64,000 nt of DNA from Halostella litorea (lineage in GTDB: Archaea > Halobacteriota > Halobacteria > Halobacteriales > Natronoarchaeaceae), in contig NZ_SJER01000007.1 of NCBI RefSeq assembly GCF_004785955.1, forward strand, positions 1 to 64,000, given 5' to 3'. Shown here one piece after another: positions 5,543-60,282 of the stretch. Each line of letters opens with the position of its first letter. Position 1 is the first letter of the stretch. The notes under the pieces were generated by a model. It worked only from the letters and a program-made list of their open reading frames with translations, ran no database searches and had not been told where the DNA came from. Position numbers and translations under genes: made by a program.

Positions 5543-5584
5543 TTAACCAACACCGTGTCGGTATCGACCGAGAATGTTGGTTAA
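5543..5584. repeat. dispersed inverted element, copy 1
   Basis: TTAACCAACA (5543-5552) and TGTTGGTTAA (5575-5584) are perfect 10-bp inverted arms around a 22-bp spacer. It lies ten bases downstream of the stop of the 5594-6034 gene and about 130 bases upstream of the 5411 start. The same arms occur in four other intergenic places; the spacers share no sequence. Confidence 0.9.
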
Positions 5585-5593
5585 GTCTAGCTG

Positions 5594-6034
5594 CTACGGC
5601 GTTCGGAGCTCTCGAACTGGCTTCACGACGAAGGTGTCTGGCTCGCTGGTTGCTTTCTCACCTGACCGCTCCGTTGACGTCGAAGACGACCCCGTGAGCT
5701 GGGTGATGAGCTCGTCGCGAACGGTTCGTCGAGGGACGGTGGTCTCGTGCCAGCCCAGCCGGTCGTCGAAGTGCCGTTTCTGGAACTGCTCGCCGACGTC
5801 GTCGGCGGCGACGTACTGCGTCCGCGACGACCGTCCGACCTGCCGGGAGACGAAGACGGCGCCCACGGCCTCGTGCGTGAGTTCGACGAGAGCACACTCC
5901 ACGAGGGCGACGACCGACGCGTGATCCCGGTCGGTCGGAACCGCCATCTCGAGGTCCGCCCACGGCGCCTCATCGTCGGGGGTAGTTCCTGCGTGATCCG
6001 CTGCTCGTGTCTTGCTGCGTTGGTCCGAAGCCAT
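5594..6034 (-). CDS. hypothetical protein
   Basis: These 146 residues are not recognised. The centre (about 30-115) looks globular, alpha/beta, with ASVVALVECALVELTHEAVG and a basic segment ETTVPRRTVRDELI; the ends are disordered and Ser/Thr-rich. A GC-rich stem (CCCCC-TCGT-GGGGG) lies about 40 bases upstream. It ends ten bases before the dispersed inverted element, copy 1. It could be a plasmid accessory protein; no function is assigned. Confidence 0.5.
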   Translation of the reverse strand: MASDQRSKTRAADHAGTTPDDEAPWADLEMAVPTDRDHASVVALVECALVELTHEAVGAVFVSRQVGRSSRTQYVAADDVGEQFQKRHFDDRLGWHETTVPRRTVRDELITQLTGSSSTSTERSGEKATSEPDTFVVKPVRELRTP

Positions 6035-6936
6035 CGTCTATCGGGGCACGTGATGCGCCCCGCCACCCCCTCGTGGGGGCAACAGACCCCACCGAAACGC
6101 ACCCGCTCAACCTATGCGCAAAATCTGATACTTGTGTAGTTTCGCTACCTCCGTGACGGCCCCTCGGCCTGAGAGAGCCGGCGGCCTTCGCACATTGCAT
6201 ATCGCCTCTTTCTTTGGACGAAATCCGCGATATGCAAGGCGAAATAACGGACTCAAATTGCAGAAGAACCTCGTCGGGCTGATTTGAGGGCGTAGAAAGT
6301 GCCTCGACGAGTTCCGAGATGATGCTGTGAATTCAAAAATTGCTCGACGGCGGGGTAACGAAGGTGATCACGGGCGTATCTGAATTTCTTGGCGCTACTA
6401 CTCCACCTCATCTTAGTCTATCGAGGTTCCCCCAGACAGGACTTCAGGTCGTGAAACGCCCCGATTCTCCCGATTCTGGTCGTCATAGCCGCTGAAAATT
6501 GCTCGACGGGGATTCAATGAGATCTGTTTCTACTTTTGAGTGGAATTGTTGTAATTCTCAGATTATGATAGGTTGTAGCTGTCGTGCTGAACACGCGAGC
6601 ATCCGCGAGCGAAGTGAATACTAACCGCTCGAATGAATCGTCATCTCCGACGTTCTCGACTAGTGATGTCACCAAGGAGTATGAGGACACGGCAGAGTTG
6701 GTTGGCCAGGGTGAGCCAATTCAACACACTGTGTAAAGTAACACGGGTTTATGGGTCTATGGCGCGATGACGAGGTACGGAGCCCATCTGCACACTATGC
6801 GTTCGTGCCCCGATTATGAAGGGGTCGTTTGAGCCGGGTTACCGGACGAACAGGCAGTCTCCTCGTTCTCCTCGCGTGGCCGGCACGTGGGACGCATCAC
6901 ACACCACACGCGTTCCGCAACAGCCACTACCCACTA
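6035..6936. other. 900-bp region with no supported gene; repeats only
   Basis: I see a GC stem near 6060-6085, an 11-bp perfect inverted repeat (TTGCATATCGC at 6195-6205, GCGATATGCAA at 6237-6247), and a 15-bp direct repeat AAAATTGCTCGACGG at 6336-6350 and 6495-6509. A 50-codon frame at 6584-6736 starts with GTG, has no ribosome-binding site and resembles nothing I know. The lower GC and broken repeats suggest decayed mobile DNA. Confidence 0.45.
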
Positions 6937-7200
6937 ATGCCTGAGGCCGACGACGAGTTCCACGGAAATGAATGGTCGCAGACGATTATCGACTATCTAG
7001 CGGACTCAGACGACGGAACTGCATCGCTCGATGCTCTCATCGAGCACATCATCGACCAAGAGACGAACCCAGTCGCAGCTGACAGAGTTACCGTCAGCTA
7101 CGAAGTAGTCCACGTGTGTCTCCCGAAACTCGAAGAGAACGGGGTCGTCAAGTTTAACGAACGAACCGAGACAATCAAATACCAACGACCAACAGCGTGA
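6937..7200 (+). CDS. small winged-helix (DUF7344-type) protein
   Basis: The protein has 87 residues with the start at ATG 6937; upstream residues in the longer frame are not protein-like. SLDALIEHIIDQE ... VTVSYEVVHVCLPKLEENGVV is the helix-turn-helix plus recognition-helix pattern of a haloarchaeal ArsR-like winged-helix family, in which VxLxHxHLPxLxxxGVV is typical. It stands alone and convergent to the end of the conjugation operon. It probably binds DNA; its target is unknown. Confidence 0.65.
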   Translation: MPEADDEFHGNEWSQTIIDYLADSDDGTASLDALIEHIIDQETNPVAADRVTVSYEVVHVCLPKLEENGVVKFNERTETIKYQRPTA

Positions 7201-7285
7201 TAACCCTGCGATCCGCCTACCGGAGATCCCCCGCAGCGCGCAAGAAGCAATAACGATCTTCTCGAAAAGAAAGTAAATCTGTAGT

Positions 7286-8809
7286 TCAGAATTGCTCAGC
7301 GGGACCCGCGGATTCCTCTTCGACCTGCTCGTACATCTCATCCGGGAACGGGAGGCTGCCCCAGATCGAGTAGGGACACTGGTCCTGGCCGATACAGTAG
7401 CGCTGTAGATCGTCGTTATCGCAGTTCATCGGCAACGGCGTGTCGCCGTCGATCGTGTTCGAGAATTCGTAGCGAACCTGGTACTCGGTCTCCTGCTCGT
7501 CGTACCACGGCCACCGGGAGAAGACGTCCTTGAGGTCCGCGACGATCTCGTCGAGGCTGCTGTCCTGGTACTGCGGCAGCCACATCACCATCCGCGCGAA
7601 GTTATAGAGATCCTTCCGGACGGGCTTCTTCTCGTGTAGCCGCTCCTCCATATTCGCCATACAGGGGAGTTCGAAGAGGTCCTCGATCTCTCGCACTTCG
7701 ATCTGTTCGGCGCCGGTTCCGGCTCGCCCGATTCGGTACGTATTGACGCGCCCGTCGCGGTCGATCGTGACGGCCGAGTGGGACTCGTGGTCGGCCAGCG
7801 TCTTCGCGAGACTGCTCGGACTCGATATCCAGTCCGTTACAGAGGATTCCCACTCGTCCTCGGCGTCGTACGCCGTAACCGCTCGATAGAGCTCCTTCGC
7901 CGTGTGGAACTCACCCTTTTGCGCCACGTCATCGGGCGCATCACTAAGAGCCCGCCGGAGGACGCGAATCGTCCGTTCCCCACGGTCCCAGTTCCGCCAG
8001 ATGCGCTCGTGATGGCCGGTCTCGAGGAAGCGGTCGATCCGCTCCGTAATTGCCGACTCGTTCGTGGTCAGCCACGATAGCTGGTCGTCGGAGAGCCCGT
8101 CTTCTTGCACCCGCAGGAGCTTCTTGAACGCCCGCTCAGCGTAGTCCCGATACTTGCTGTCGAAATCACCGACCGGGACGTACAGATTGTTGTCCTTCAC
8201 TCGCGTCAGTATCTCCCCGCCATCGTCATTCCCTGTCGACGACTCGTCCTCCCGAACGAGACATTTGCGTGACGCCGCCGCCATCGGGATTTCGAGGTAC
8301 AGGCCATCCCCGAACTCCGGCATCTCCGTGATGCCCGTACAGACCCGACCCGGATGTGGGCCATCCTCACCGGGCTCCTTGCTGTACAGCACGTCGGCGA
8401 TGTCCTGCTGGAGTGATCCATCGCCGTGGGCGTGCATGAGGGAGGCGAGATTGTTGACGTACAGCTCCCGGATGTCGTAGAGCACCTGAATGTTCCGTGG
8501 TGACGCGTGCTCGAACTTCGGGTTTTCTTTCACACAGATCGCACTCAGCGTCGCGAGCACGGCGAGCGTCCCCGGTTCGTCGACGAACGGCTCTTCGGCG
8601 GCGTCGACACGGACCTGCTCTTTGAACGCCGCCGTCCCGAACCGCTCGACGTCGTTCACGAGGTCCTCTGGTTGGTCCTCGCCGTCGACGACGTATCGGT
8701 TGTAGCCACGCGTAAACAGCTGGTTGATGCGGGTCTCACCGTACTCCAGCGGGAGTGCCGCAACCCGATACGCCATGTCCTCGTCGTCGGTGGGGGTACT
8801 CGGACTCAT
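7286..8809 (-). CDS. PriL-like large primase subunit with Fe-S-type cysteines
   Basis: The protein has 507 residues and lies directly downstream of the PriS-like gene (ATGA overlap). The C-terminal third (about 375-490) has four cysteines at 383 (ELPCM), 463, 472 and 478 (QCPY), with the spacing of the [4Fe-4S] C-terminal domain of archaeal/eukaryotic PriL. The N-terminal part is helical. With the catalytic subunit it would form a heterodimeric RNA/DNA primase. It is the last gene of the conjugation operon, suggesting it primes the transferred strand or plasmid replication. Similarity to chromosomal PriL outside the cysteine domain is not obvious, so this is a diverged plasmid type. Confidence 0.7.
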   Translation of the reverse strand: MSPSTPTDDEDMAYRVAALPLEYGETRINQLFTRGYNRYVVDGEDQPEDLVNDVERFGTAAFKEQVRVDAAEEPFVDEPGTLAVLATLSAICVKENPKFEHASPRNIQVLYDIRELYVNNLASLMHAHGDGSLQQDIADVLYSKEPGEDGPHPGRVCTGITEMPEFGDGLYLEIPMAAASRKCLVREDESSTGNDDGGEILTRVKDNNLYVPVGDFDSKYRDYAERAFKKLLRVQEDGLSDDQLSWLTTNESAITERIDRFLETGHHERIWRNWDRGERTIRVLRRALSDAPDDVAQKGEFHTAKELYRAVTAYDAEDEWESSVTDWISSPSSLAKTLADHESHSAVTIDRDGRVNTYRIGRAGTGAEQIEVREIEDLFELPCMANMEERLHEKKPVRKDLYNFARMVMWLPQYQDSSLDEIVADLKDVFSRWPWYDEQETEYQVRYEFSNTIDGDTPLPMNCDNDDLQRYCIGQDQCPYSIWGSLPFPDEMYEQVEEESAGPAEQF

Positions 8810-9690
8810 TCGTCGATCACCTCGGGTGTCGCCGACCGAACGTCGAACGCCGGACTCTCGATTGGTTGAACGATGCTACAGACGTCGGCGTGCAGCGAGT
8901 AGGGCAGGCGAGCGACACGCCGGCGGTCGGCCGTCACGACGGGATCGATCGGGATGTCGTACGTCTCGAGGAGGAGGTCGTTCAACACTTCGCGACTCTG
9001 CTCGTCGTATCGGTGCGCCGGGTCGGTATCCAGCAGGTAGACGTGGACCCCCTGCCCGCTGTACACGACCATCGTCTCCTCGGCGTCGAAATCGTCCTCG
9101 AAGATGTCACGCACCTCGAACCCGTATTCGATGGCGCGGTCGATGTCTTCGAAGGCGTACGGATACCCCTCGGGAGCGGCATCGAGGATACCCGCAGCGT
9201 CGAGGAGCGCGTCGTCGCCCCGATCGTCGAGGTCCGTCGACACCATCTCGTCCGCTCGGTCTCGGGCGATCTCTTTCGCGTCGATGTCGACGAGGAGGAC
9301 CCAGGGTCGTTCCCAGTGATCCAGCGCGTAGTAGACGGCGTCGGGCCGTGGGTCCGGTTGCTCCAGCACCTCCGGATCAGCAAGCGCGAACTTGCTCCGC
9401 CCCAGCGGGTCGTTGCGAGCGGGGTGGCGTATGAACTCGACGACGTCCTCGAGGTCGTCGAACTCGGGCGTCGTTCGGTCGCCCGACGCATCTGTTTGCC
9501 AGGTATCCCGCCGGATGAAGTCCTTGTCCGGCACCTCGTCTTTGCGCACCGGGTGGGACTCGCGAAAGGCGACGGCGTACTGTTTCGGGCCGGTCGCCGT
9601 GATGAATTCCGGCAGGTCGTCCAGATAGCGGGGGAACTCCTCGGCATAGTAGGCGTAAATCTCCTCGCGGGTCGCCTGTCGCCAGGTCAT
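8806..9690 (-). CDS. PriS-like catalytic primase subunit (archaeo-eukaryotic primase)
   Basis: The protein has 294 residues. The archaeo-eukaryotic primase motifs are clear: VLLVDIDAKE gives the metal-binding D135-x-D137, YSGQGVHVYLLD gives the S-x-H nucleotide-binding motif (H216), and IDPVVTADRRRVARLPYSLH gives the third-motif Asp and the R-L-P signature. The N-terminal YYAEEFP is also typical of PriS. It overlaps the coupling ATPase gene upstream and the PriL-like gene downstream by four bases each. The role, priming DNA synthesis, is well supported; linkage to conjugation is inferred from the operon. Confidence 0.85.
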   Translation of the reverse strand: MTWRQATREEIYAYYAEEFPRYLDDLPEFITATGPKQYAVAFRESHPVRKDEVPDKDFIRRDTWQTDASGDRTTPEFDDLEDVVEFIRHPARNDPLGRSKFALADPEVLEQPDPRPDAVYYALDHWERPWVLLVDIDAKEIARDRADEMVSTDLDDRGDDALLDAAGILDAAPEGYPYAFEDIDRAIEYGFEVRDIFEDDFDAEETMVVYSGQGVHVYLLDTDPAHRYDEQSREVLNDLLLETYDIPIDPVVTADRRRVARLPYSLHADVCSIVQPIESPAFDVRSATPEVIDE

Positions 9691-12600
9691 TGGTTGAGTT
9701 CCTGATCGAGATTTTTGAAGCCCCGAACGGTGGTCAGGCCCGCAGCATCGAACTCGTTGACGGCGTCTCTGATGGTCGCGAACGACCGTGCCGCCCGCCC
9801 GCTGACCCGCTCGTCGATTCGATCTGCGTCGGCAAGGCTCTCCAGGACATTGAGCGCCGTCTCGCGATTGTTGAAGGCCCAGATCGCGTCGGCGTCCACC
9901 GCGCTGAGTTTGTCGTAATCCTCGACCGGGGCGTGCCGGTTGTTACTCGCGAGCTCTGCTTCGCCGGCCCAGACGAGATCGCCGCCCTCGTCGAAGCCGG
10001 CCACGTCCAATACCGTGCCGTCGTCGGTTTCGTAGTACGGTTCCACCCGACCGACGTCGTCCCGCTGGTGGAGCCACAGCTCGAGGAGCCGGACGCCAAC
10101 CTTGTGTGGCGTTTTCTCGCCGAGATCGCCCGCTCCTGGCCCCGCCTTCAATTCTCTCCCGAGGAGGTCTCGACCGTCCGGGAGGACGGTGTAGTACTTG
10201 CGCCCCGCCGCGGAGTCCGCTTCCAGGAGGTCCTGTTCTGTGAGCCGTTCCATATGGAGGTCGTCGTATTCGTCCCGGAGCTGGCTCATCCTGTCCAGTA
10301 GCGTGTACTCGTCGTCCTCTCGGTTCATCACGTCGAGGACCCGATTCAGGAATCGGACGTCGTCACGGCTGAGCCCGCGTTGTTGGAGTTCGTCATCGGG
10401 GACGGGTACGCTGCTTTCCTGGACGGGCGTTGCCCCGTTCTCCGTCTGCGCTGCTTGGTCACCAGCTGGGTCCTCGTCCGTTTCGGTGGCCTGCCCGAAC
10501 AGGGGGCTCATCGCTGCCTCGTCTGCATCTGGGTCGCTGTCCGTCTCGACCTGGGTGGTCGACGTCGATGCGTCCTCGGCCGTCGATTCGCTGATGAACG
10601 CGGATTGCGTCGGGTCGGTCGCTGCATCGCCGTCGGCAGCCGAGCCCGTCGTCTCACCCCCCGAACTCCCCCAGCCAGTCTCCTCTGGGGAAGTGGTCGA
10701 CTCAGTCGGCTCTCTCAGCCCGTACTGGGCCTGTGTCCGCTCGACCATCCGTGGCCGGGACACGGACTCGAAATGGTCTTCCTGGGGCTCTGTGAGCGGC
10801 TGGTCGCTTTCTGGATGGCCTGGCGCAATCGGGAGCGGCTTCAGCGAAAACGGCGGCGGCCCAGTCTCGCCGAACGACGGACTGGGGAGTTGGGCGATCC
10901 ACTCGCCGCTCGGCAACGTGTTGATTCGGTTGCGGAGTTCGGTCGGGCTGAGGTCCTCGTGGGCAAGCGACTCCGCGAGGTCGCGCTCGATCGAGATGTT
11001 GCCGATGAGCTTGGTCTTGATGTTGTTCAGCACCTCGTCGTAGGCCCGCTCGTTCCGGTTCCGCACCTGCTCGGGGAACTGCATCACGAGGCCCATACTC
11101 AGGCCGAACGACCGGCCCTGCGGCAGGAGTTGTTCGGAGACGAGCTTCGTCGACGCGACCGGCGCCGCCTCCTCGATGATGAGGTTCGTGAGCTTCTCGT
11201 AGTCGGTCTGGCCGTCGCGCCGGCGCACCTGGACGGCGTCCCAGAGATTGCTCAACAGTAGTAGGGTGATCGCTCGCTGGGCCTCCGGCCGCAGGTCGCC
11301 GAGGTCGAAGATGATGGTGGCGTCTTTATCGAGGAACTCGCGGAAGTCGAACCGGTTGTCGACGTACTCGCCGGCGTCATTCTGCTCGGGGACGTGGCTG
11401 AAGATTCGCCGGAGATGCGCGTCCTCTTTGAGCTTGTCGAGGCGGTTCCCGACGGCGTCCATCGACACCTGGAACTGGTGGTTGTCCTTCGCGAAGTGGC
11501 GCGTCAGCGATTCCTCGATGTTCTGGTTATCCGCTGAGACCGGGGGAATCGTCTGGTCGCGCTGCATCCGGAGCGCGGCGGCGAAGAGGTCGTCCAAGCC
11601 GAACACGTCGCTCCCGTACTCCTCGTCGAACAGCGCCTTAATCAGGTAGCTGAGGATCTCGTTCGCGACGAACGCCTGCCCGTACTGCTCGCGGCCCATA
11701 ATCATCCGGAGGATGTCGTGGAAGTGATCGACCTTGTCCTGAATCGCGTCCTCTCGGTTGCGACCGGCCTCGAGCGCAGGCCGGATGTCGAAGAAGGAGA
11801 ACGCGGGGATTGTCTCCGGGACGCGGAAGTGGTAGACGTCGTCGAGGCCACTGAACCGCTCGTAGTGGCAGCGCAGGTAGTTCTCACACATCCCGTCCCC
11901 CTTCGGGTCGACGAGGACGACGGGGCCACCAGTCGTATCACGGAGCGAGAGCGCGTCGTTGATGATGGCCTTCGACTTCCCGCCACCAGTCGACGCGAAC
12001 CGCCCGTAATGCGTCGGCAACAGGTCTGGCGGAATCCGAATGGGCTCCGGCCGTGGCTCACCGTTCTCGTCGAGCGCGTAGCCGATTGCCATCCCGTCTT
12101 GGAACTGCTGGATTAGATCCGGATTCGGCCACGGGAGCGGGTTCCGACTCTGCTGTTCGGCCCTGGTTCCTCGCGTCCCTTCGACGGTCAACTGTTCGGA
12201 GGAGGGAACGAGGACGAAGTTCGCGAGCTCCGTTCCACAGAGGACCAGCTCGGGGCGGGTCTTCCCCCGCCCCGTCATTAACTCGCGATTGAGGAGGCGC
12301 TGGAGAGCGGCCCGTGCCTTCTTCTCCTTCGTCTTCTCACGGAAGCCGCTGTCCCGGAGGCGTTGCCCCTCGACCTCGTAGAACGGACCATCAAGCGGGT
12401 CGAACACCGGGAGGAGCGAGTCCATCCGACCATCGAGGTCGTCGCGGATGGTGTCGGTGGGGACGCCGACGGCCCGGATGTTGACCGTGAACGACCGTTT
12501 GGCGTTCTTCGCGTCGATGTACTCGATCCGCTTCTCGACGGCCTCGCTGAGCTGCCGGTCGTCCTGGTCGCTCCGTTGCTCCTCGACCTCGAGCAACGAC

Positions 12601-13511
12601 CCGACGACTTCCTGGAAGAACGTATCCCGGCCGTCGACGAGGTCCTCTTTCCGTACCTCCGAGTCGGACTGCCAGCTAGCACGCCGTTGGAAGACGACTT
12701 GGAACGCGGTCGGCGCTGTCGCCTCCATCAAGTGGTCGATCAGCGACGCCAGCGCCGCGCCGGGCTCGTCGACGGACGAGAGATCGCCGTTCGTTTCCTC
12801 TGCCGTGAACGGCGTCAGCGAGGTCATCCAGTCCTGCTTCCGCGACGCGGAGCCACACCACCGGACACCGAGCGGCGAGACAGCATCCTGTGCCGGGCGA
12901 GCCAGAATCGTTCCCGCCGGTGTCATCGTCGGCTTCTCGATGGCCCGTCGCTCTTCCTCGTCGTCTGGAAGTGCATCGGGCGGCGCTAGTTCGAGGGCTG
13001 AGTCCCCGACAGTCACGTGATGATCGGGGACGCTCGTGGCTGCCGTACCGCCGTCGACAACGGGGTCCGCTTCGGCTGGCTCGGAGTCCTCTGATTCCTC
13101 GTCGACGATGTCGTACTGTTCTGCCGGGCCAAACTCGTACTGCAGCCGCCCGGCCTCGTAGTGGTCGACGAATTCCTGCGGTGTGAACTTGACTGGCTGA
13201 ATGAGCCGAGCGGCGACGTCGACGTCGACGCGCTCGATGTCGAACGTGCTTGGATAGATGGAGCGGAGGCGCTTCTCGAGCGTATCGAGGTGCGCATCGG
13301 CCCCGTAGAAGAACTCCACCGGGTCGTCCGGGCCATCACTGATTGCGAGGAACTCGAATCGGGGTGGTGTCTCGCTGTGGAGCGGGTTCAGCTTCGCCCC
13401 GAGACCCGACGAGCCGGGCGTGGTCAGCTTGTGGAGGCTGTCGAGGACTCGGGGGATGCTCTCCGGATCGAGTCGCTCGGATGTCGGCGTGACGCGCAGG
13501 TACTCAGCCAT
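9687..13511 (-). CDS. VirD4/TraG-like coupling ATPase with a C-terminal nuclease-like domain
   Basis: The protein has 1274 residues. Residues 1-460 form a large alpha/beta N-terminal region. The motor domain has Walker A STGGGKSK (about 507-514), the TraG/VirD4 block VVLVDPKGDG (531-540) and an acidic Walker B-like LIIEEAAP. A linker rich in Ser/Thr/Asp/Glu follows (about 900-1030). The C-terminal 240 residues hold a winged-helix-like part and a block LDVAGFDE ... WAGEAEL (D1169, E1184, E1186) resembling a PD-(D/E)XK core. It should bring DNA to the secretion channel. No membrane helices are evident, unlike classical VirD4. Overlaps tie it to VirB4 upstream and PriS downstream. Confidence 0.75.
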   Translation of the reverse strand: MAEYLRVTPTSERLDPESIPRVLDSLHKLTTPGSSGLGAKLNPLHSETPPRFEFLAISDGPDDPVEFFYGADAHLDTLEKRLRSIYPSTFDIERVDVDVAARLIQPVKFTPQEFVDHYEAGRLQYEFGPAEQYDIVDEESEDSEPAEADPVVDGGTAATSVPDHHVTVGDSALELAPPDALPDDEEERRAIEKPTMTPAGTILARPAQDAVSPLGVRWCGSASRKQDWMTSLTPFTAEETNGDLSSVDEPGAALASLIDHLMEATAPTAFQVVFQRRASWQSDSEVRKEDLVDGRDTFFQEVVGSLLEVEEQRSDQDDRQLSEAVEKRIEYIDAKNAKRSFTVNIRAVGVPTDTIRDDLDGRMDSLLPVFDPLDGPFYEVEGQRLRDSGFREKTKEKKARAALQRLLNRELMTGRGKTRPELVLCGTELANFVLVPSSEQLTVEGTRGTRAEQQSRNPLPWPNPDLIQQFQDGMAIGYALDENGEPRPEPIRIPPDLLPTHYGRFASTGGGKSKAIINDALSLRDTTGGPVVLVDPKGDGMCENYLRCHYERFSGLDDVYHFRVPETIPAFSFFDIRPALEAGRNREDAIQDKVDHFHDILRMIMGREQYGQAFVANEILSYLIKALFDEEYGSDVFGLDDLFAAALRMQRDQTIPPVSADNQNIEESLTRHFAKDNHQFQVSMDAVGNRLDKLKEDAHLRRIFSHVPEQNDAGEYVDNRFDFREFLDKDATIIFDLGDLRPEAQRAITLLLLSNLWDAVQVRRRDGQTDYEKLTNLIIEEAAPVASTKLVSEQLLPQGRSFGLSMGLVMQFPEQVRNRNERAYDEVLNNIKTKLIGNISIERDLAESLAHEDLSPTELRNRINTLPSGEWIAQLPSPSFGETGPPPFSLKPLPIAPGHPESDQPLTEPQEDHFESVSRPRMVERTQAQYGLREPTESTTSPEETGWGSSGGETTGSAADGDAATDPTQSAFISESTAEDASTSTTQVETDSDPDADEAAMSPLFGQATETDEDPAGDQAAQTENGATPVQESSVPVPDDELQQRGLSRDDVRFLNRVLDVMNREDDEYTLLDRMSQLRDEYDDLHMERLTEQDLLEADSAAGRKYYTVLPDGRDLLGRELKAGPGAGDLGEKTPHKVGVRLLELWLHQRDDVGRVEPYYETDDGTVLDVAGFDEGGDLVWAGEAELASNNRHAPVEDYDKLSAVDADAIWAFNNRETALNVLESLADADRIDERVSGRAARSFATIRDAVNEFDAAGLTTVRGFKNLDQELNQ

Positions 13512-15738
13512 CGTTGGTCCCCTCCGTCGACCCGCCGTCTGGCTCAGCTTCGACGGCGTCTGATTCCTCGTTCGGTTCGCTCGTTTCGTTCGTTCCGTTC
13601 GTTGCTCGATGCTCGAGCTCTTCTTGGAACTCCTCCATCTCGGTATCGACGGCGTCGTCGCCGGCGCCGGGCAATGAAGACCGGATCTGTGAGGTCGGAT
13701 CGAAGTCGATGACCTGCTTCTCCTTGGGCATCGCTTTGACCTGGATGCCGCGCCACTCGCCGTCGACGCCCACGAGTGCTTCGGAGAAGCCGGCGTCCTC
13801 GTTGCCGGGCACGGCGTCCTGGACGAACCGCATCTGTGCGTAGTTCAGGCCGAACTCATCAGCCCACTCCTCGTCCATCCCGTCGAGACGGTGGAACTGC
13901 TTGACCGCACACTGGTCCAGAATGGCCTCGCTCTCGGCGTGCTCGAAGAACTCGTCGACGGTCTGCGTGACCAAGCGGATTGAGAGGTCGTGGTGGCGGT
14001 GGTGCCGGAACACCGTTTCGAGGAACGCCAGGCTCGCGGCGTCCTGCATGATGTACCGCGCCTCGTCGATGTAGAACACGACCTCCTTCTCCGAGACTTT
14101 CGCCCGCTCGTAGACGAGCGAGATGAGCAACTGCATCGTCAGCGCCGTGCTGCTGTCGACGCTGCCCTCCTGCTGGGCGAGATCGAGGTAGATAACCTTC
14201 TCGTCCCGAATGTCGAAGTCGGACTCTTGGCCGAGGTTGGCGTGCCGACCGTCGTCCTCGAAGGGGCGGAGCTGGTCGAGTAGCCACGTCGCGTCTTCCT
14301 TGATCTTCCCCGCCTCCTCGTCGGACCGGACGACGAACTCCTCGGGGTCGTCAACCATGTCCTCGAAGACGTCCATCATATCCTGAATCGTCGGGCTCGG
14401 GTTGCCGTGCGTCGAGATGTCGTCGGTAATCCCGTTTCGCTTGTACGCCCGCTTGAGCCCGAGTTCGAGTGTCGTCCGGCGGTCGCCCAGCGAGATGCCG
14501 CGGAGGGCGAAGAAGTTCGTCAGGAAGCTCATCGCGTCGTCGAGCTTCTCGTTGAACGGGCTGGCGTCCTCGCCCATCGCCCGCTGGACGTGCTCGGGCG
14601 TCTCCCGAATCTCCAAGGGGTTCAGCCCGAGCGTCCCGCCGACCGTGATGCGTTTGGCGTCGAGTGCTTCGGCGACGCCGGCCCAGTTATTCAGCGGCTC
14701 GAGGATGATGCCGATACGGTCCTTGCTCTGCTCGATGGAGCGGATGAAGTTCTGCTTCGAACTGAACGACTTCCCCGAGCCGGTGTCGCCGACGGTGAAC
14801 ATCGCGTACCCGTTGTCCCTGGCGAACGGGTCGATGACCACCGGGCTCTGGTTGTCCTTGTGGATCCCGAACTCGACGCCGCCCTCCTCGAGGATCGTCG
14901 CGTTGTGCGGCGAGGAGAGCAACGCGCCGACGGCACCGCCGAGCGCAATCGACGTCCGCCCGAACTCGTTGTCGCCGATAGGTGCGGCGGACTGAAGGGC
15001 GAGATCCTGCCGACAGATCGCCGTCTTCGGCGTGAGGTTCGCCGGATCGTCGCGGAGCGCGCTCTTGACCTTCTGGACGGCGTCGCGGAGTTCCTCCTTC
15101 TCGTCGGCCCGGACCGTGATGAACATCCCCTGGTCGAAGACGTTCGCGCCGTTCTCGACGGCCTTGTACGTCGCTGCGGCCTCGTTGGCGCGTTCCTGCA
15201 GGTAGGCACTCCGGACACTCTGTTCGAGGTCGGCGTCCACTTGGAGGTCGTCAGCGATGTCCTGCAGTTCGTTCCGGGCCCGCTCCTGATTCTTCGGCGT
15301 GATGTGGGCTGTCAGATCGAACTGCACGTCCGTCATCTCGAAGAGCTCGGAGAGGTAGCCGTCGTTGGGGTAGTCCGGGTAGTCAGCGATGTACAGCGTC
15401 GTCGTCCACTGCTCGCCGACCCGTGCCGCGCGCGTCTCCCACTCGATCGCCGCCGGCGCCGTCACCGTCTTGTGTGACTCAGCGATGTCGTCGAGGAGTC
15501 GGCGTTCGGCCGCGCCCTGTTCGATGGTCTCCTCGTCGAGCAGATCCGAGAACTCGACCTCTTCCTCGTCGTCTTCGGTGTACCAGTCCCAGAGGAGTTT
15601 CCCGCCGATACCGACCAGTACCGCGAGCAGGATGTAGAGGGCCGCCCCTTCAGCTGAGGTTGGGTTCGTGAGCCACTCCGTGAGCTGGCCGACGGCTCCG
15701 CTGCCCGTCTGGAGGACGAGGTTACGCATCGTGGTCAT
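13504..15738 (-). CDS. VirB4/TraC-like type IV secretion ATPase
   Basis: The protein has 744 residues. A single N-terminal membrane helix (about 33-52) precedes a VirB4-type N-domain (about 90-280) and an ATPase domain with Walker A GDTGSGKS (317-324), followed by IGIILEPLNNWAGVA and GLNPLEI as in VirB4/TraC proteins. Walker B is VVFYIDEARYIM, and LVTQTVDEFFEH follows. It powers pilus assembly and substrate transfer at the membrane. It overlaps the VirB3-like gene upstream by 17 bases and the VirD4-like gene downstream by 8. The acidic, Thr/Glu-rich tail is typical of haloarchaea. Confidence 0.85.
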   Translation of the reverse strand: MTTMRNLVLQTGSGAVGQLTEWLTNPTSAEGAALYILLAVLVGIGGKLLWDWYTEDDEEEVEFSDLLDEETIEQGAAERRLLDDIAESHKTVTAPAAIEWETRAARVGEQWTTTLYIADYPDYPNDGYLSELFEMTDVQFDLTAHITPKNQERARNELQDIADDLQVDADLEQSVRSAYLQERANEAAATYKAVENGANVFDQGMFITVRADEKEELRDAVQKVKSALRDDPANLTPKTAICRQDLALQSAAPIGDNEFGRTSIALGGAVGALLSSPHNATILEEGGVEFGIHKDNQSPVVIDPFARDNGYAMFTVGDTGSGKSFSSKQNFIRSIEQSKDRIGIILEPLNNWAGVAEALDAKRITVGGTLGLNPLEIRETPEHVQRAMGEDASPFNEKLDDAMSFLTNFFALRGISLGDRRTTLELGLKRAYKRNGITDDISTHGNPSPTIQDMMDVFEDMVDDPEEFVVRSDEEAGKIKEDATWLLDQLRPFEDDGRHANLGQESDFDIRDEKVIYLDLAQQEGSVDSSTALTMQLLISLVYERAKVSEKEVVFYIDEARYIMQDAASLAFLETVFRHHRHHDLSIRLVTQTVDEFFEHAESEAILDQCAVKQFHRLDGMDEEWADEFGLNYAQMRFVQDAVPGNEDAGFSEALVGVDGEWRGIQVKAMPKEKQVIDFDPTSQIRSSLPGAGDDAVDTEMEEFQEELEHRATNGTNETSEPNEESDAVEAEPDGGSTEGTNDG

Positions 15739-16843
15739 CCTCCCGGCGCGAGTGGCCGATGATGGGTTGTTCGCGAACGACGCTCTCTGCGTCGTCGTAC
15801 TCGTGTTCGCGGCCGTTCCAGAAGTCCATATTCAACACGAAGAGCTCGACCGTGCTGAGCCGGCGTGCGGACCAGCCCGACGCCTGCTGGATGAACTCCG
15901 ACCGCACGTCGTTGACTCGGCTGTCCAGCTTCTCGAACATCTGGGCGCGGCGCTCGACGTCGGTGAGGTCCTCCCGGCGGGTCACGAACGGGTTGAACAG
16001 GAACCCGATGACGGGGAACTGCGTCAGCTTCTCGGCGGGCGTGCCCTCGTCGCGGAAGCGGTCGTAGACCTCCAGCGGGGTGACCTCGACGCCGATGTAG
16101 TACCGTACCTGCTGGATGCCCCGTTCGCGCATCTCCTTCGGCCGCGTCTCCCGATACTCCTCGAGGAGTTCCCGGAAGATGGGGTTTTCTTTGACGTCCT
16201 CGTCGTTCAGGCGGTCTTCGATGTTCTCGGTGATCTGTTCGACCGGGAACGAGCGGGTCGTGGCGTGGAGTTTGAGCTTCGAGTCCAGTTCCTTGTTGGC
16301 GAACTCCTCGCCGGCGTCTTGGAGCTGTGCCCAGTCGTCGGACATCGCGAAATCCATGTTGCCGGGGTTGATCTCGATGAACGCCTCCATCGTGCCGTCC
16401 GCGCGCTGGATCGCGCCAGCGCCCGGCCACGCCCGTTCGATGTTCGTGAGGTCCTGCGTCCGCTCGTCGGGCTTGAACGGCGTGTAGTTCGCGAGCCCGC
16501 CCTCGTTGCGCTCTGTCTCGTTGGTACTACTGTCGGCCTCCTCCGGGGCGCTGAACGTGATCTGGGGGCGCTTGACGTAGCGATAGACGTCTTTCGTCCA
16601 CGTCCACGCGTTGAGGTGGTCGGGCGAGACGTAGACGATCGCGACGCCGAACCCGAAGCCACCTGCGACGAACGGCAGGGCGAGTGATTCGATGCCGGTG
16701 AGACCGGCGATGAACAGGCCGACGATCGGGAAGGCGATCAGGACGCCGACGTCGCCTTCCTCGATGTTGAGGTAGGGGATGCGACTCTCCTCACCGAACT
16801 GGTCCATGATGCGCCGTGCGGCTGCGTCTTCGTCGATGGACAT
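15722..16843 (-). CDS. VirB3/PrgI-like membrane protein with a VirB4-type N-domain
   Basis: The protein has 373 residues. Two adjacent membrane helices (about 31-50 and 55-72) resemble the VirB3/PrgI inner-membrane subunit, followed by YVSPDHLNAWTW and a soluble alpha/beta region. The latter (ERAWPGAGAIQRADGTMEAF to the end) resembles the N-terminal domain that precedes the VirB4 motor. I infer a channel component that docks on VirB4; the two genes overlap by 17 bases. It is not an ATPase, having no Walker motifs. Confidence 0.65.
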   Translation of the reverse strand: MSIDEDAAARRIMDQFGEESRIPYLNIEEGDVGVLIAFPIVGLFIAGLTGIESLALPFVAGGFGFGVAIVYVSPDHLNAWTWTKDVYRYVKRPQITFSAPEEADSSTNETERNEGGLANYTPFKPDERTQDLTNIERAWPGAGAIQRADGTMEAFIEINPGNMDFAMSDDWAQLQDAGEEFANKELDSKLKLHATTRSFPVEQITENIEDRLNDEDVKENPIFRELLEEYRETRPKEMRERGIQQVRYYIGVEVTPLEVYDRFRDEGTPAEKLTQFPVIGFLFNPFVTRREDLTDVERRAQMFEKLDSRVNDVRSEFIQQASGWSARRLSTVELFVLNMDFWNGREHEYDDAESVVREQPIIGHSRREDDHDA

Positions 16844-16849
16844 GGATTG

Positions 16850-17911: not shown

Positions 17912-17913
17912 CG

Positions 17914-20474: not shown

Positions 20475-20501
20475 AGGGCTCGCACGGGGGTTGCGTAGTG
20501 C

Positions 20502-20921: not shown

Positions 20922-20927
20922 AGCGAG

Positions 20928-21206
20928 TCAATCATCTGTGGCGTCTCCAGCTGGTGGCTGGTTCTGCTGCTCTTCGACGAGCGACTGGAGGTCGTCGAAG
21001 CGGTTGGTGTCCTCTGCGATCTCGTCGACCGTGTAGCCCTGCTCGCGGGCCCGTTCGAGGAGGTCGCGGAGTTCATCGGGGTCAACACCGCGGACTTCCA
21101 TTTCCTCGCGGAGGGCGCGGCGATAGAGGGCGGAGGCGTTGATGTGGTCGTTCCACATCAGGTACAGGTCATCGATGTCCTCGATGGTGACTGACCTCGT
21201 AATCAT
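20928..21206 (-). CDS. ribbon-helix-helix-like regulator at the head of the conjugation operon
   Basis: The protein has 92 residues with the start at ATG 21206; the earlier in-frame part lacks protein character. MITRSVTIEDIDDLYLMW ... INASALYRRALREEM matches the strand-helix-helix pattern of CopG/CcdA-like ribbon-helix-helix proteins. A second helical part DELRDLLERAREQGYTVDEI and a Gln/Pro-rich tail follow. It could repress the operon or act as a relaxosome accessory protein like TraY or Arc-type factors. An inverted repeat lies 5-26 bases upstream of its start. Confidence 0.55.
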   Translation of the reverse strand: MITRSVTIEDIDDLYLMWNDHINASALYRRALREEMEVRGVDPDELRDLLERAREQGYTVDEIAEDTNRFDDLQSLVEEQQNQPPAGDATDD

Positions 21207-50600: not shown

Positions 50601-50642
50601 TTAACCAACACACCGCCGTCAATACGGCCGGGTGTTGGTTAA
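50601..50642. repeat. dispersed inverted element, copy 3
   Basis: TTAACCAACA (50601-50610) and TGTTGGTTAA (50633-50642) flank a 22-bp spacer; arms extend to 11 bp in this copy. It lies in the divergent intergenic region between the 50526 minus-strand start and the 50799 plus-strand start, with no gene end nearby. Confidence 0.9.
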
Positions 50643-56224: not shown

Positions 56225-56548
56225 TTACTCGTCCGGGTTGACCGGACCTTTGTACTTCGACTTCACTGAATCACCCTCCCGCCACTGCCAGTAGTAGTAG
56301 CGATTGTCGTTGATTTCCTTGATCGTGATCGTCGCTTTGGCAGGGACGTCGTCCGGGAGATCGTCCGGTCCCTCTTCGACCTCTTCTTGATCTGCCGACT
56401 CCTCGAGACGGGCCTCTCGTTCCTTGTGCTCGGCGAGCGCTTCAGCGTACGTCGCAACGTCTCGGAGCTGCTCCGGGTCCGACTCGTTGAGCGTGTTGAC
56501 GATCTCCGTCGGGAGGTTCGCCGGTGGGGTCGGGGGTTCGTAGGACAT
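56225..56548 (-). CDS. small protein beside the origin (DUF6788-like)
   Basis: The protein has 107 residues. A helical N-terminal half (LPTEIVNTLNESDPEQLRDV, AEALAEHKEREARLEESAD) is followed by a strand-rich end IKEINDNRYYYWQWREGDSV and KSKYKGP, resembling a haloarchaeal DUF in which Y-x-Y-x-Q-x-R-x-G is typical. Dispersed inverted element copy 4 begins 15 bases upstream of its ATG. Possibly DNA-binding; unknown role. Confidence 0.6.
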   Translation of the reverse strand: MSYEPPTPPANLPTEIVNTLNESDPEQLRDVATYAEALAEHKEREARLEESADQEEVEEGPDDLPDDVPAKATITIKEINDNRYYYWQWREGDSVKSKYKGPVNPDE

Positions 56549-56562
56549 CGGCTACTCTCGTG

Positions 56563-56603
56563 TTAACCAACACGAGCCACGAATCCATAGTTTTGTTGGT
56601 TAA
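56563..56603. repeat. dispersed inverted element, copy 4
   Basis: TTAACCAACA (56563-56572) and TGTTGGTTAA (56594-56603) flank a 21-bp spacer. It lies between the start of the 56548 minus-strand gene and the 56687 plus-strand gene. Confidence 0.9.
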
Positions 56604-56686: not shown

Positions 56687-57613
56687 GTGCTCCGGCGTAT
56701 CGAACTCGAGGTCCTCGCCACGGTCGACCGCGGCGACACGATCTCTGAGCTCGCGACGAAGCTCGACCACAGCGAGAGTTACCTCTCTCGTGCTGTCGCC
56801 GACCTCGTCGAGAAGGGGCTCGTCTACACGGAACGCGACGGGCGGCGAAAACGAGTCGTCCCGTCGGACGCTCGTGCCGTCGAGCTCTACCAGGACCTCG
56901 TCCGCCAGCACTCCCACATCGACTTCCCCGAGCTACTAACCGGGAAGGCACTCGAGGTGCTGTACTACCTCGACCAGCCGCGAACCGTCTCCGAGATCGC
57001 CGACCGGAGCGACAATTACCGCAACACGGTCAACCGCGTCCTCAAGCGGTTTCGCGACCGCGGGCTTGTCGGGACGGCCGACGGCCGCTACGAGTTCAAC
57101 GCCGACTTCGACCGTCTCCACGAGTTCGCCCGTGAACTCGCACACCATCTACATCGTCAACGCCTCGAGGCCGTCGCCCCGAAGGGCACGATTCTCTGGG
57201 AGGACTACGACGAATTCCTCGCCCAGGCTGAGACGGAGATCGAGGCAGAGGGGTTCCACGAAACCGGCCTCGCTCGGTTCGCGGCCTTCGACCTCCAATT
57301 CCTGCTCACCGGCCATCGCTACTACGTCTACTCCGAGGATCCCGACGCAGTCTCGCCGGCGGAACTTTGCTGTCACACGCTACTGATCGACGACGGCAGC
57401 CGCCACCGCTCGTACTGTCTCCTCCTGCTCAGCCACGTCGACGTCGACGAGGCGGACCTCCGAGAGCAGGCGGCGAAGTATGGTCTCGAAGACGAAATCG
57501 ACGCCCTGCTCCGCTACCTCGAGACGCACGGCGAGGTTGACGACGACCGGCTCCCGGAGTGGGACGAGTTTCAGGAACTGGCGGCTGACTACGAGGTGCC
57601 ACTACCACAATGA
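56687..57613 (+). CDS. winged-helix regulator of a nucleotidyltransferase pair (second copy)
   Basis: The protein has 308 residues with a GTG start; no in-frame ATG precedes it. Two winged-helix-like domains are visible: TISELATKLDHSESYLSRAV (about 18-37) and TVSEIADRSDNYRNTVNRVL (about 98-117), followed by an alpha/beta domain (about 150-308). It overlaps the nucleotidyltransferase start (ATGA). Same arrangement as 38249-39615: DNA-binding protein first, nucleotidyltransferase second. Likely autorepressor. Confidence 0.7.
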   Translation: MLRRIELEVLATVDRGDTISELATKLDHSESYLSRAVADLVEKGLVYTERDGRRKRVVPSDARAVELYQDLVRQHSHIDFPELLTGKALEVLYYLDQPRTVSEIADRSDNYRNTVNRVLKRFRDRGLVGTADGRYEFNADFDRLHEFARELAHHLHRQRLEAVAPKGTILWEDYDEFLAQAETEIEAEGFHETGLARFAAFDLQFLLTGHRYYVYSEDPDAVSPAELCCHTLLIDDGSRHRSYCLLLLSHVDVDEADLREQAAKYGLEDEIDALLRYLETHGEVDDDRLPEWDEFQELAADYEVPLPQ

Positions 57614-58413
57614 GACCAACATTCGGACGCGAGTACATCGAGAACGAATTCCAGCGAATCGGGAACGGGCTATCTGAACCGCTCACGGTCTACCTGATCG
57701 GTGGTGGCGCGATGTCGCTGCGCGACCTCAAGGGGGCGACGAAAGATATCGACCTGGTCGTCCCAGATGGCGACGCGTACGGTCAGCTGTGGGCGGTCCT
57801 GATGGACCTCGGGTATACGGAGGTCCAGTCGCTGGATGCAGATTACCGGGCGCTTGGCGCGACGAGCTGCGTCGAGAACGAAGACGGGTGTCGCCTCGAC
57901 GTCTTCAACCAGCAGGTCGCGAACAAGCTCGTGCTCACCGACGGGATGCAAGAGCGCAGCGAGCCGTTCCTCGACACAGATCGACTGACGGTCCGGCTGG
58001 TCAGCAACGAGGATATCTTCCTGTTCAAGGCGATCGCCGGCCGCGACGACGACATCGAGGACATGAATATGCTCGTGCAGGCCGGCCTCGATTACGACGT
58101 CGTCCGGGCTGAACTCGAAGCCCAGATCGAACGCCTGGGGGACGATCAGTTCGCCACGTTCGCGAACGAGGCCCTGGTCGAACTCGAGGAGCGGTACGGA
58201 GTGACCACACCGATCGAGGACCGCGTCCAGAAGCTCACGAACAGGTACTACCGGGGGCTCGAAGTCCTCCAGGCACTCGACGAGCCGATGACCGTCGACG
58301 AACTGGCCGCCGAACTGGAGTTGGATACTGACAAGGTTCACGACCGGATCGCGTATCTCTCAACGTTCGACCGGGTCCGTCGGGATGGCGACACGATCCG
58401 TCCTGTGGAGTAG
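57610..58413 (+). CDS. DUF6036-like nucleotidyltransferase (candidate toxin)
   Basis: The protein has 267 residues. The nucleotidyltransferase motifs are YLIGGGAMSLRDLKGATKDIDLVV (GG at 31-33, D46-x-D48) and CRLDVFNQQ. The core ends near residue 190 and is followed by a C-terminal winged helix (about 215-267, PMTVDELAAELELDTDKVHD). The extra winged helix is not in the first copy. It may modify RNA or protein in a type IV-like toxin-antitoxin pair; the substrate is unknown. Confidence 0.7.
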   Translation: MRPTFGREYIENEFQRIGNGLSEPLTVYLIGGGAMSLRDLKGATKDIDLVVPDGDAYGQLWAVLMDLGYTEVQSLDADYRALGATSCVENEDGCRLDVFNQQVANKLVLTDGMQERSEPFLDTDRLTVRLVSNEDIFLFKAIAGRDDDIEDMNMLVQAGLDYDVVRAELEAQIERLGDDQFATFANEALVELEERYGVTTPIEDRVQKLTNRYYRGLEVLQALDEPMTVDELAAELELDTDKVHDRIAYLSTFDRVRRDGDTIRPVE

Positions 58414-58426: not shown

Positions 58427-59242
58427 CTACGTGGAAGGAAGGCGGCCGTCTGGTCGGGGCACGCGGCCCCGTTTGATCTCGTGATCGACGCGGCGCAGGT
58501 GCTTGCAGCCGCCTTCGGGTGAACGTTGCTGCCAGTCTGGACAGGTACACGATTCGTCGATGACGTCGACTTCGTACCTGTTGCCGGACGCGGACTGTAC
58601 CTCGTAGCGGCCACCCTTCGAGAGGAGTGAGACGTCCATCGCTTCGGCGACGGCACGCTTCGTGCGGGGCTCGAGATCGTCCTGTGACTCTGCGTTCTCG
58701 TCGACGACCAGTCGGTCGCGAACGTCGCCCGTTCGGCCGCCGTCGGGAGCGACGGCTTCCGCAGGGCCACTGAGCCGCTCGTGGAGCACTCCCTCCACCG
58801 GATGGCCTTCCGGCCACAGGTAGTGCACTTCGCGGCGCTCTCGATGATCGTAGGACCCGCACGCCGCTGCGCTCCCGGTCCAGACGCGCCAGGCCCCGAG
58901 CGCGGCCATCACGTCGACGATGTCGCGGGGAACCGTCTGGTGGTCGTCCGGGAAGAACACCCGGAAGCGGGTACACGCCTCCTGCGGCGGGACGGTCTCC
59001 CACCAGTCTTCGCTGGAGCCCCAGCTGTCGTACATCGCGTCGTCGCTCCCGTAGCCGACGGTCACGCCGTCGATCGGCGTCCAGTCTGCTGGGAGGTGGT
59101 CCGCCTCGCCTTCGAGCACCCGGAGGACGGCGTAGCGGAGGTATTCGTGGGCTTGGTTGTCTGTCGTTCGAGCGACCTGGTCGTGCTGCTCGGCAACGTG
59201 CTCGGCTTCCTTGAGGACCGTCGTGAGATAGGGTTCAGTCAT
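58427..59242 (-). CDS. SWIM zinc-finger protein
   Basis: The protein has 271 residues from ATG 59242. The C-terminal SWIM motif is SCTCPDWQQRSPEGGCKHLR (C-x-C-x(n)-C-x-H). The upstream part (about 30-180) is an alpha/beta domain, DGVTVGYGSDDAMYDSWGSS and FRVFFPDDHQ. SWIM domains bind DNA or protein in recombination-related factors. It is convergent with the nucleotidyltransferase gene. Upstream is a T-run plus GC stem leader similar to those of two nearby genes. Confidence 0.8.
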   Translation of the reverse strand: MTEPYLTTVLKEAEHVAEQHDQVARTTDNQAHEYLRYAVLRVLEGEADHLPADWTPIDGVTVGYGSDDAMYDSWGSSEDWWETVPPQEACTRFRVFFPDDHQTVPRDIVDVMAALGAWRVWTGSAAACGSYDHRERREVHYLWPEGHPVEGVLHERLSGPAEAVAPDGGRTGDVRDRLVVDENAESQDDLEPRTKRAVAEAMDVSLLSKGGRYEVQSASGNRYEVDVIDESCTCPDWQQRSPEGGCKHLRRVDHEIKRGRVPRPDGRLPST

Positions 59243-59269
59243 TATTCGACGGAGGTCAGAACGCGCCTC

Positions 59270-59294
59270 CGCCCCTCCGCGGGCGCAGAAAAAA
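59270..59294 (-). promoter_or_regulatory. T6 tract followed by GC stem in the SWIM gene leader
   Basis: On the minus strand, TTTTTT (59289-59294) is followed by a stem CGCCC/GGGCG (59281-59285 with 59270-59274) before the ATG at 59242. The same order, T6 then GC stem, occurs upstream of the 61661 and 61226 starts. Confidence 0.4.
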
Positions 59295-59406
59295 TTCCGT
59301 GTAGCTGATGGACTGGTTTTCACTCAGAATGACTGCTTATAGACACGAAGGGTGTAGCGTTCGCGTCGGCGGTGCAATTTACAGATATGCGAACGCTCCA
59401 CTAGGT

Positions 59407-60165
59407 ATGGTTGCCACGTACTCAATACTGTCACTACTGATCATCTTCGCGCTGTCGTTGTTGATTGTTCGTACCGGCTCGATTGCGCTGGAGATGACGG
59501 GCCTTTCACCAGATGTGGCCTCCTTCCAAGCCACGTCTGCGTTCTCTGGAGCCGGATATACGACCGAAGAGGCAGAACAGGCTATCACCACCGTCGGCCG
59601 CCGCAAAACCGTGAAGGCGCTCATTCGGCTCGGCAGTATTGGACTCCTCGGTGCAATTTCGTCACTTATCCTTTCGTTCACGCGAACTGGTGGCGACGAC
59701 CTGTTGAACTTGCTGTATATTCTCGGTGGCGCCGGTGTGATCATTCTGTTCGCACGAAGTCGGTGGTTCAACCGCCTCGTGACGCCGCTTATTGAGTGGC
59801 CGCTGAGTGAGACGACAGAGTTGGAGATCTCGGATTATGCCCAGTTACTCGGATTGCAACGTGAATATCGTGTGGCGGAGGTGGAAATCAGCGAGGGGGA
59901 TTGGCTGGCAGGGGGGTCGATTTCGGAGCTGGATTTACCACGCGAAGGGGTGTTGATACTCGGCATCCGTCGTGATGATTCATATATTGGTGCCCCACAA
60001 CCAGATACGGAGACAAAACCGGACGACACGCTTGTCCTCTATGGGAAACAAGACCGTCTCAAAGAATTGTCAGACCGGCTCAGTGGTGATGCAGAGGCTC
60101 GGGAAGATGCTGTTGAAGACCACGAGGGAACGCTCGAAGAGCAACAACAACTCATTGACCAATAA
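59407..60165 (+). CDS. membrane protein with a TrkA-C (RCK_C) domain
   Basis: The protein has 252 residues from ATG 59407; the earlier in-frame start region is not protein-like. Hydrophobic helices are at about 1-22, 70-90 and 97-112, with AFSGAGYTTEEAEQAITTVGRR between them, resembling Trk/Ktr transport subunits. The C-terminal part (about 150-225, YRVAEVEISEGDWLAGGSIS, DTLVLYGKQDRLKEL) is a TrkA-C domain. May regulate potassium or another ion transporter. The final 25 residues are Glu/Gln-rich. Confidence 0.75.
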   Translation: MVATYSILSLLIIFALSLLIVRTGSIALEMTGLSPDVASFQATSAFSGAGYTTEEAEQAITTVGRRKTVKALIRLGSIGLLGAISSLILSFTRTGGDDLLNLLYILGGAGVIILFARSRWFNRLVTPLIEWPLSETTELEISDYAQLLGLQREYRVAEVEISEGDWLAGGSISELDLPREGVLILGIRRDDSYIGAPQPDTETKPDDTLVLYGKQDRLKELSDRLSGDAEAREDAVEDHEGTLEEQQQLIDQ

Positions 60166-60241
60166 CAGGAGCCACTCACCGAATTTGACCTCCTGATTAG
60201 AAATTAGAATTGACTGAAAGAATGGCGACATCACGTATGGA

Positions 60242-60282
60242 TTAACCAACAATACAAAACTACACATCCCTCTGTTGGTTAA
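60242..60282. repeat. dispersed inverted element, copy 5
   Basis: TTAACCAACA (60242-60251) and TGTTGGTTAA (60273-60282) flank a 21-bp spacer; the outer A/T adds an eleventh base pair. It lies between two convergent genes (ends 60165 and 60300), so it is not upstream of any gene. Confidence 0.9.

Follow-up and report, generated by a model that had tools for sequence, protein, structure and literature searches.

A dispersed paired site shared by haloarchaeal plasmids and viruses, and a small plasmid protein as its candidate binder

Why should one haloarchaeal contig carry the same pair of short inverted arms at five places between its genes? The DNA in question is positions 1 to 64,000 of contig NZ_SJER01000007.1 of Halostella litorea (assembly GCF_004785955.1), and we call this whole 64,000-nucleotide stretch the window. 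As a sequence-only reading of it had reported, there are five pairs of the form TTAACCAACA-N21..23-TGTTGGTTAA, and all ten arms are perfect. The pairs, to which no strand is assigned, are these:

5543-5584: paired site copy 1; spacer 22 base pairs (bp); tandem gap, with minus-strand genes at 5594-6034 and 4866-5411.
21354-21396: paired site copy 2; spacer 23 bp; exonuclease VII small-subunit gene on one side, conjugation-type operon on the other.
50601-50642: paired site copy 3; spacer 22 bp; divergent gap adjoining a DNA polymerase B / Orc1-Cdc6 region.
56563-56603: paired site copy 4; spacer 21 bp; divergent gap, 14 bp before the start codon of a gene for 107 amino acids (aa).
60242-60282: paired site copy 5; spacer 21 bp; convergent genes on both sides.

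The abundance of arms is well beyond chance, as the same reading had argued: the window holds 11 arms with at most one mismatch where 0.67 are expected, and 5 pairs, again allowing one mismatch, where 100 dinucleotide shuffles gave 0.00. Its description of the gene context holds in part. Copy 5 does lie between convergent genes, and copies 1 and 2 do follow a minus-strand stop codon, but each also precedes the next gene on that strand; copies 3 and 4, described as upstream of starts, are better placed in divergent gaps. The dispersed site family to which these five pairs belong is real and class-wide, and a small protein encoded beside copy 4, which we call A1, is a well-supported candidate for its binder.

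We observed the site well beyond the window. The host genome (G000, 3.75 megabases, 13 contigs, with the window on contig C6) has 17 perfect pairs: six on C6, two on C7, four each on C8 and C9, one on C3 and none on the other contigs. Nearly all exact arms are paired. Among 39 in the host genome, 34 belong to perfect pairs; a further four have a one-mismatch partner, and the last lies at C2:268687. A search of the rest of the replicon and its relatives, which the sequence-only reading had proposed, found the sixth C6 pair just beyond the window (C6:65038-65079) and, in a survey of 391 genomes sampled evenly across the class with the host included, at least one perfect pair in 260 genomes and 67 of 86 genera. 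A reversed-pattern control gave zero in all 391. Halobacterium salinarum carries 6 pairs on pNRC200 and 8 on pHS2. Viruses carry the site as well, with 50 pair-bearing stretches in 42 IMG/VR virus records and 3 pairs in the isolate virus ChaoS9, so the earlier description of the site as plasmid-specific, while right about plasmids, is too narrow. Six of the virus contigs (L165, L174, L180, L198, L200, L214) have gene families in common, and their pairs lie between same-direction genes, several with only about 4-55 bp either side. A scan of named contigs returned at least 119 stretches, all but one titled haloarchaea or uncultured archaea. The exception (L111:5870-5987), with two pairs 38 bp apart and a GC content of 49%, comes from a metagenome-assembled genome labelled Candidatus Tritonobacter lacicola, and is perhaps mis-binned or perhaps a carrier outside the haloarchaea. 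Titles and the beginnings of abstracts, mostly of open-access papers, gave no account of this site under its arm sequences, their 8-mers, haloarchaeal plasmid motifs or partition. The accessible parts of the ChaoS9 and PhiH1 papers (PMC6471424, PMC6210493) do not mention it, and the sole 'inverted repeat' in those of the PhiH1 paper is a tail-fibre inversion.

The anatomy of the site is that of two fixed arms at a fixed distance. Among 246 distinct pairs from fetched loci, the spacer measures 20-24 bp in 244, with 21 and 22 commonest, and neither spacer nor flanks are conserved, weak preferences beside the arms excepted. The mean arm distance over 207 pairs, duplicate sequences removed, is 31.48 bp, or 3.00 turns at 10.5 bp, which bears out the three helical turns first estimated from the window. 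We could also set arm conservation against spacer drift, a comparison suggested at the outset: at positions homologous to copy 2 on C8 and C9, both arms are kept while the spacers on the three replicons differ in sequence and length (23, 21 and 22 bp). Thirty-three imperfect pairs with one to three mismatches show how the arms themselves vary. Most of the altered bases (30/42) are changes from A to G at the innermost arm base; no position is altered in both arms in 30 of the 33, and the remaining 3 have the identical change in both.

Clustering of the proteins encoded near the sites brought out A1, present at 41 loci, with 39 members at most 400 bp from a pair and the start codon usually 12-16 bp behind it. 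This adjacency count is biased, the 41 loci having been fetched by site; the 30-locus sets described below were fetched by protein profile. The window's copy of the gene is:

56225-56548, minus strand: A1 gene, proposed binder, 107 aa; helical N-terminal half, weakly predicted linker, three-stranded beta sheet.

A1 is a small plasmid protein without a curated family and so far nameless. At E 0.01 neither NCBIfam nor PHROG yields a match to the window protein, and its two Pfam matches (E 0.07 and 0.22), neither of them ParB-like, are at chance level. It matches 227 PLSDB records, and the 40 listed of these are all haloarchaeal and named 'hypothetical protein'. Both the sites and the protein occur in Halobacterium salinarum, whose copy of the protein (WP_010904196.1) is 99% identical. 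The ChaoS9 homologue, ChaoS9_240, is 56% identical over 105 aa and has a pair directly upstream in different surroundings; the accessible text lists it as uncharacterised (PMC6471424, PMC6210493). The AlphaFold model of A1 is of moderate quality (predicted local distance difference test score 75, about 73 in the sheet), and a second model is of equal quality.

The linkage between protein and arms is what makes A1 a strong candidate. Among the 30 best-scoring loci fetched with the A1 profile, the canonical pair lies upstream in 30. A diverged subfamily of A1-type proteins, A2, is accompanied instead by a variant pair, TTACCCCACA-N17..21-TGTGGGGTAA, which lies ahead of the gene in 29 of the 30 best-scoring loci of the A2 profile. 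The TTACCCCACA arm differs from the canonical one by two changes, present in both arms, and the variant pair is itself dispersed, occurring in 23 of the 391 genomes with spacers of 17-21. Among 1786 control genes, from which those with an arm-like 7-mer upstream are excluded, an inverted repeat with spacers of 14-28 was found in 86 for arms of at least 8 and in 10 for arms of at least 10.

The same match holds across genomes. We counted as strong an A1 hit with E < 1e-28 and an A2 hit with E < 1e-26, cuts chosen after viewing the lists, the A1 list being bimodal. The co-occurrence with one gene that the sequence-only reading had advised looking for is there: the canonical site is present in 213/216 A1-strong genomes vs 47/175 others (p 2e-58), with totals of 1730 and 85 pairs, and the variant site in 19/38 A2-strong genomes vs 4/353 others (p 3e-18). 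An A1 gene usually comes with a pair of its own, so the co-occurrence of A1 and site alone is no proof. There is no cross-association (canonical site with A2, p 0.59; variant site with A1, p 1.0), and when variant sites beside A2 genes are removed, A2 is found in 11 of the 15 genomes that keep a dispersed one (p 2e-9; these genomes were listed by hand, and two G158 sites are unclassed). In a tree of 88 proteins, arm types fall into two separate clades, 25 variant-type rows plus one intermediate vs 29 canonical plus 3 with CTAACCAAC arms, rows pooled earlier with canonical A1 and separated here. Not one of the 58 labelled rows crosses over, and 14 changes suffice against a shuffled mean of 43.8; the tree is a quick one with few columns and 46/85 inner branches drawn open, and its main split has a support of 99. 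The other 30 rows have no pair, and 16 of them form one clade from a single family (f4). A lone arm-like TTACCCAACA at 21306-21315 on the minus strand, intermediate in sequence between the two arm families, adjoins copy 2 in the window. Taken together, these associations make it very probable that A1-type proteins bind the pairs. The earlier proposal of a two-armed protein on a cis-acting site fits, now with a specific candidate.

Copy 4, which lies just ahead of the A1 gene, is the probable autoregulatory operator of that gene. Between its arms is a further element:

56586-56593, minus strand: AT-rich element AAACTATG; likely TATA position of the A1 gene.

In pairs upstream of A1 and A2 genes, in contrast to the dispersed pairs, the spacer is often semi-conserved and holds elements resembling AAACTATG or ATTGATAT. 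Their distance from the start is about right for TATA boxes, which is how we tentatively read them.

The dispersed copies are placed differently. Genes were called with a purpose-made simple caller, on which distances to stops and starts depend, and homologous sites are not independent, so the p-values that follow are optimistic. With A1-adjacent sites included, the classed intergenic sites comprise 115 in tandem, 48 in divergent and 36 in convergent gaps, near the intergenic background. Once A1-adjacent sites are removed, only 7/154 lie inside called genes vs 3941/5000 random places. Of the 144 intergenic ones, 59 are at -12..+20 of a stop codon vs 18.3 expected (p < 2e-4), and at 14 sites the arm itself provides the gene's TAA stop codon. 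Conversely, 24/144 are in divergent gaps vs 34.7 expected (p 0.02) and 21/144 at most 60 bp ahead of a start vs 32 expected (p 0.015); convergent gaps hold 28/144 vs 21.5 expected (p 0.08). T5 tracts are commoner behind genes followed by a site (20/74 vs 74/694). Under-representation before starts and in divergent gaps, together with the clustering at stop codons, tells against a promoter operator as the general role, and as the role of every copy we reject it. The sequence-only reading had held that neither a promoter nor a terminator could explain every copy; placement agrees, except that copy 4, as probable operator of A1's own gene, likely does have a promoter role.

Starting from what is demonstrated computationally (the sites and how they are spaced, the linkage of gene and site, the matching shifts in protein clade and arms, and the placement behind stop codons), we propose that the pairs are binding sites for A1, a small DNA-binding protein encoded by the mobile elements themselves. 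The two 10-bp arms, three turns apart, face the same side of the helix, and an A1 dimer would contact both, one beta-sheet domain to each arm, leaving the spacer unread. Upstream of the A1 gene, where the probable TATA region falls between the arms, such a dimer would cover that region, and A1 would thereby repress its own synthesis. Elsewhere on plasmids and some viruses, the copies may act at gene ends as roadblocks or insulators that halt transcription or keep neighbouring units apart, much as phage stoperators do, and A1 from another replicon could serve dispersed pairs in trans. The roadblock or insulator role is the weakest step of the proposal, plausible and yet somewhat short of probable. 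Among the roles offered by the sequence-only reading (partition, nucleoid, replication-control or recombination site) none is singled out, and given the stop-codon placement none is likelier than a roadblock or insulator.

Several observations weigh against this proposal. The A1 model has no convincing match to any solved DNA-binding fold: with the first of the two models, VIA-align gave no Z of 5 or more and Foldseek returned the arm-binding domains of integrases weakly (3rmp, E 0.87; 3jtz, E 1.8), and sequence search also gave none. The A1 profile was built from proteins located beside sites, and the division into strong and weak hits followed inspection of the lists. In 30 genomes picked for A1-type genes without a perfect canonical pair, the best locus of each had a TTACCCCACA pair upstream in 3, a CTAACCAACA pair in 2 and a one-mismatch canonical pair in 2, and the other 23 show no pair of any known type. 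The 16 pairless proteins of the f4 clade include chromosomal ones, as some members are on single-contig genomes. Half of the A2-strong genomes (19/38) have no perfect variant pair, and 4/23 variant-site genomes have no strong A2. Conversely, 47 genomes have sites without strong A1 (85 sites, median 1, maximum 5), 40 of the 42 site-bearing virus records have no A1 match, though the records may be fragments, and the host contigs C7 and C3 bear sites and no A1 gene. Either A1 acts in trans on the pairs of such contigs and virus records or those pairs serve otherwise. The T-tract excess fits transcript ends and equally AT-richness, and the clustering at stop codons may reflect mere promoter avoidance.

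Two further observations concern pairless A1-type genes. The f4 paralogue clade (16 members among L286-L308, pair absent upstream) has C termini of the ..RSKTVQR type. The A1 copy at L266 on pNRC200 lacks a pair through loss of the left arm; the spacer and right arm are retained.

The alternative that survives best keeps A1 as the binder and takes the dispersed pairs as partition or plasmid-organising sites, through which A1 would bridge, compact, pair or segregate replicons. A location behind stop codons would then be merely the least harmful place, and structural or partition anchors sited in this way would give a similar placement. The pairs cover whole replicons, at about one perfect pair per 15-50 kilobases (kb) on C6-C9; they are common to plasmids and viruses, show no promoter preference and, as machinery sites do, span most of the sampled genera. 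An orc gene lies about 0.3-1.4 kb from A1 on C6, C8, C9 and pNRC200, and in ChaoS9 a parA gene is nearby. Yet no ParA gene adjoins A1 in the window or in ChaoS9, the stop-codon preference and the TATA-bracketing copy indicate transcription, and identical sites, were they centromeres, should make plasmids within one host incompatible. We regard partition as possible, if on the doubtful side.

Could another plasmid or host protein bind the pairs, with the A1 gene merely its most constant target? The best such candidate is the SWIM-zinc-finger protein encoded at 58427-59242, matched at E < 1e-80 in 35/40 site-rich and 0/40 site-less genomes, a cut set after viewing the list; at E 1e-10, where the matches are mostly partial, the figures are 39/40 and 25/40. 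The scarcity of A1 in site-bearing virus records also speaks for another binder. In the same panel, however, strong A1 is found in 40/40 site-rich and 0/40 site-less genomes, and 11-15 sites are present in each of the five site-rich genomes that lack a near-full SWIM match. The joint change of A1 clade and arm sequence, without cross-association, is most simply explained by an A1-type binder, which leaves a different one improbable; the SWIM-zinc-finger protein may be a partner of A1. A PadR-like protein common to C6-C9 was uninformative as a candidate, occurring in 80/80 panel genomes, and the 308-aa double winged-helix protein beside copy 4 occurs in 16 fetched loci vs 41 for A1.

An RNA hairpin (terminator or processing signal) or protein-free DNA cruciform would account for perfect inverted arms and for sites directly behind stop codons; it is very unlikely, given that 30/33 imperfect pairs leave every position unchanged in at least one arm, which is evidence against an RNA hairpin, that spacer length is nearly constant around an unconserved loop, that pairs also lie upstream of starts and in divergent gaps, and that no Rfam family is found in the window at gathering scores. 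Equally little credence attaches to a mobile or recombinational element (REP sequences, attachment sites, transposon ends), which would suit an intergenic, stop-adjacent, multicopy site and is at odds with arms that persist over drifting spacers at homologous places, with flanks and spacers that have no common sequence, and with arms that change along with the A1 clade.

With A1 as the binder, a wider picture may be drawn. Haloarchaeal plasmids and viruses would share a common pool of control, in which small beta-sheet proteins form specificity groups (TTAACCAACA, CTAACCAACA, TTACCCCACA and others), each serving the same-arm sites on all co-resident elements. We offer this network tentatively; if it is true, one element's protein acts on another element's genes, and the virus records with sites and no A1 already pose the question of such cross-control. 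An exact 20-bp signature of two thirds of the genomes sampled in an archaeal class is tied to one nameless plasmid protein, which makes haloarchaeal plasmid control directly testable, Halobacterium salinarum included. The specificity variants with their matching operators are a natural set for the protein-DNA recognition code of an uncurated binding domain, and they are possibly orthogonal regulators for haloarchaeal genetics.

Other genes of the window give the setting. The long minus-strand row at 7286-21326, with copy 2 at its head, has weak VirB4/TraG-type matches and a strong TrbL/VirB6 match, which identify it as predicted conjugation-type machinery. At 56687-58413 the double winged-helix protein (HVO_2833 C-terminal domain) is followed by a DUF6036 nucleotidyltransferase, an arrangement that we take to be reminiscent of AbiE-type pairs. 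Minus-strand genes for a DNA methylase (N6_N4_Mtase, 41699-43063), an SMC/RecN-type ATPase (43615-45615) and a ResIII/DEAD helicase (45856-47877), with small genes between, are possibly a restriction or defence system. Two P-type ATPase genes (23391-25673 and 32025-34265) and an ArsP/YHS permease (29045-30430) are probably metal-handling cargo.

How does the site family compare with known systems? REP sequences and bacterial interspersed mosaic elements (BIME) have a conserved palindrome body and are associated with a RAYT-type transposase; in the haloarchaeal pairs the spacers are unconserved. In ParABS systems the binder sits beside its ParA ATPase, unlike the window, where about 18 kb separate A1 from a ParA-type gene (36882-37754), and unlike ChaoS9, where parA is 1.6 kb from the A1 homologue with three genes between. 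Integrase arm-type and AP2-like domains are three-stranded sheets; the A1 model has three strands, and its integrase matches are weak. A distant relative in L119 scores 35 bits against the A1 profile and 37.7 bits against DUF6788 (PF20586), listed as a family of unknown function; for A1 itself Pfam gave no DUF6788 match up to E 1. Repressor-operator control is familiar from haloarchaeal viruses, and phiCh1 is said to have operators of its own. RepR of halovirus PhiH1, an element-encoded repressor that regulates a haloarchaeal extrachromosomal element, is a precedent for what we propose for A1; in the accessible text it is described as coliphage-repressor-like, with no homologue detected in ChaoS9 (PMC6471424, PMC6210493), although that virus carries three pairs along with an A1 homologue.

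Two further parallels are the stoperators of Cluster A mycobacteriophages and the operators of KorB. Stoperators, bound by the L5 repressor (Gp71), are described in the available part of the source as many near-identical 13-bp sites, most of them off promoters and mainly oriented with transcription, whose motif and repressor diverge together (PMC6550527). The haloarchaeal pairs are likewise dispersed in many copies, mostly off promoters, and arms and protein diverge together. They differ in being symmetric and two-armed over three turns, where stoperators are asymmetric according to a title and each set belongs to one phage genome; in lying also in convergent and divergent gaps; and in being common to plasmids and viruses across an archaeal class, with a protein that has no curated family. 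The likeness would extend to roadblock action if, as we propose, the pairs block elongation. KorB of the IncP plasmid RK2, as far as abstracts describe it, is a plasmid-encoded global regulator and partition protein whose operators act at a distance, and it is a ParB protein, unlike A1, which has no ParB or other convincing Pfam match. Although it fails a tested defining feature of each, the site family works like phage stoperators or KorB-type plasmid operators.

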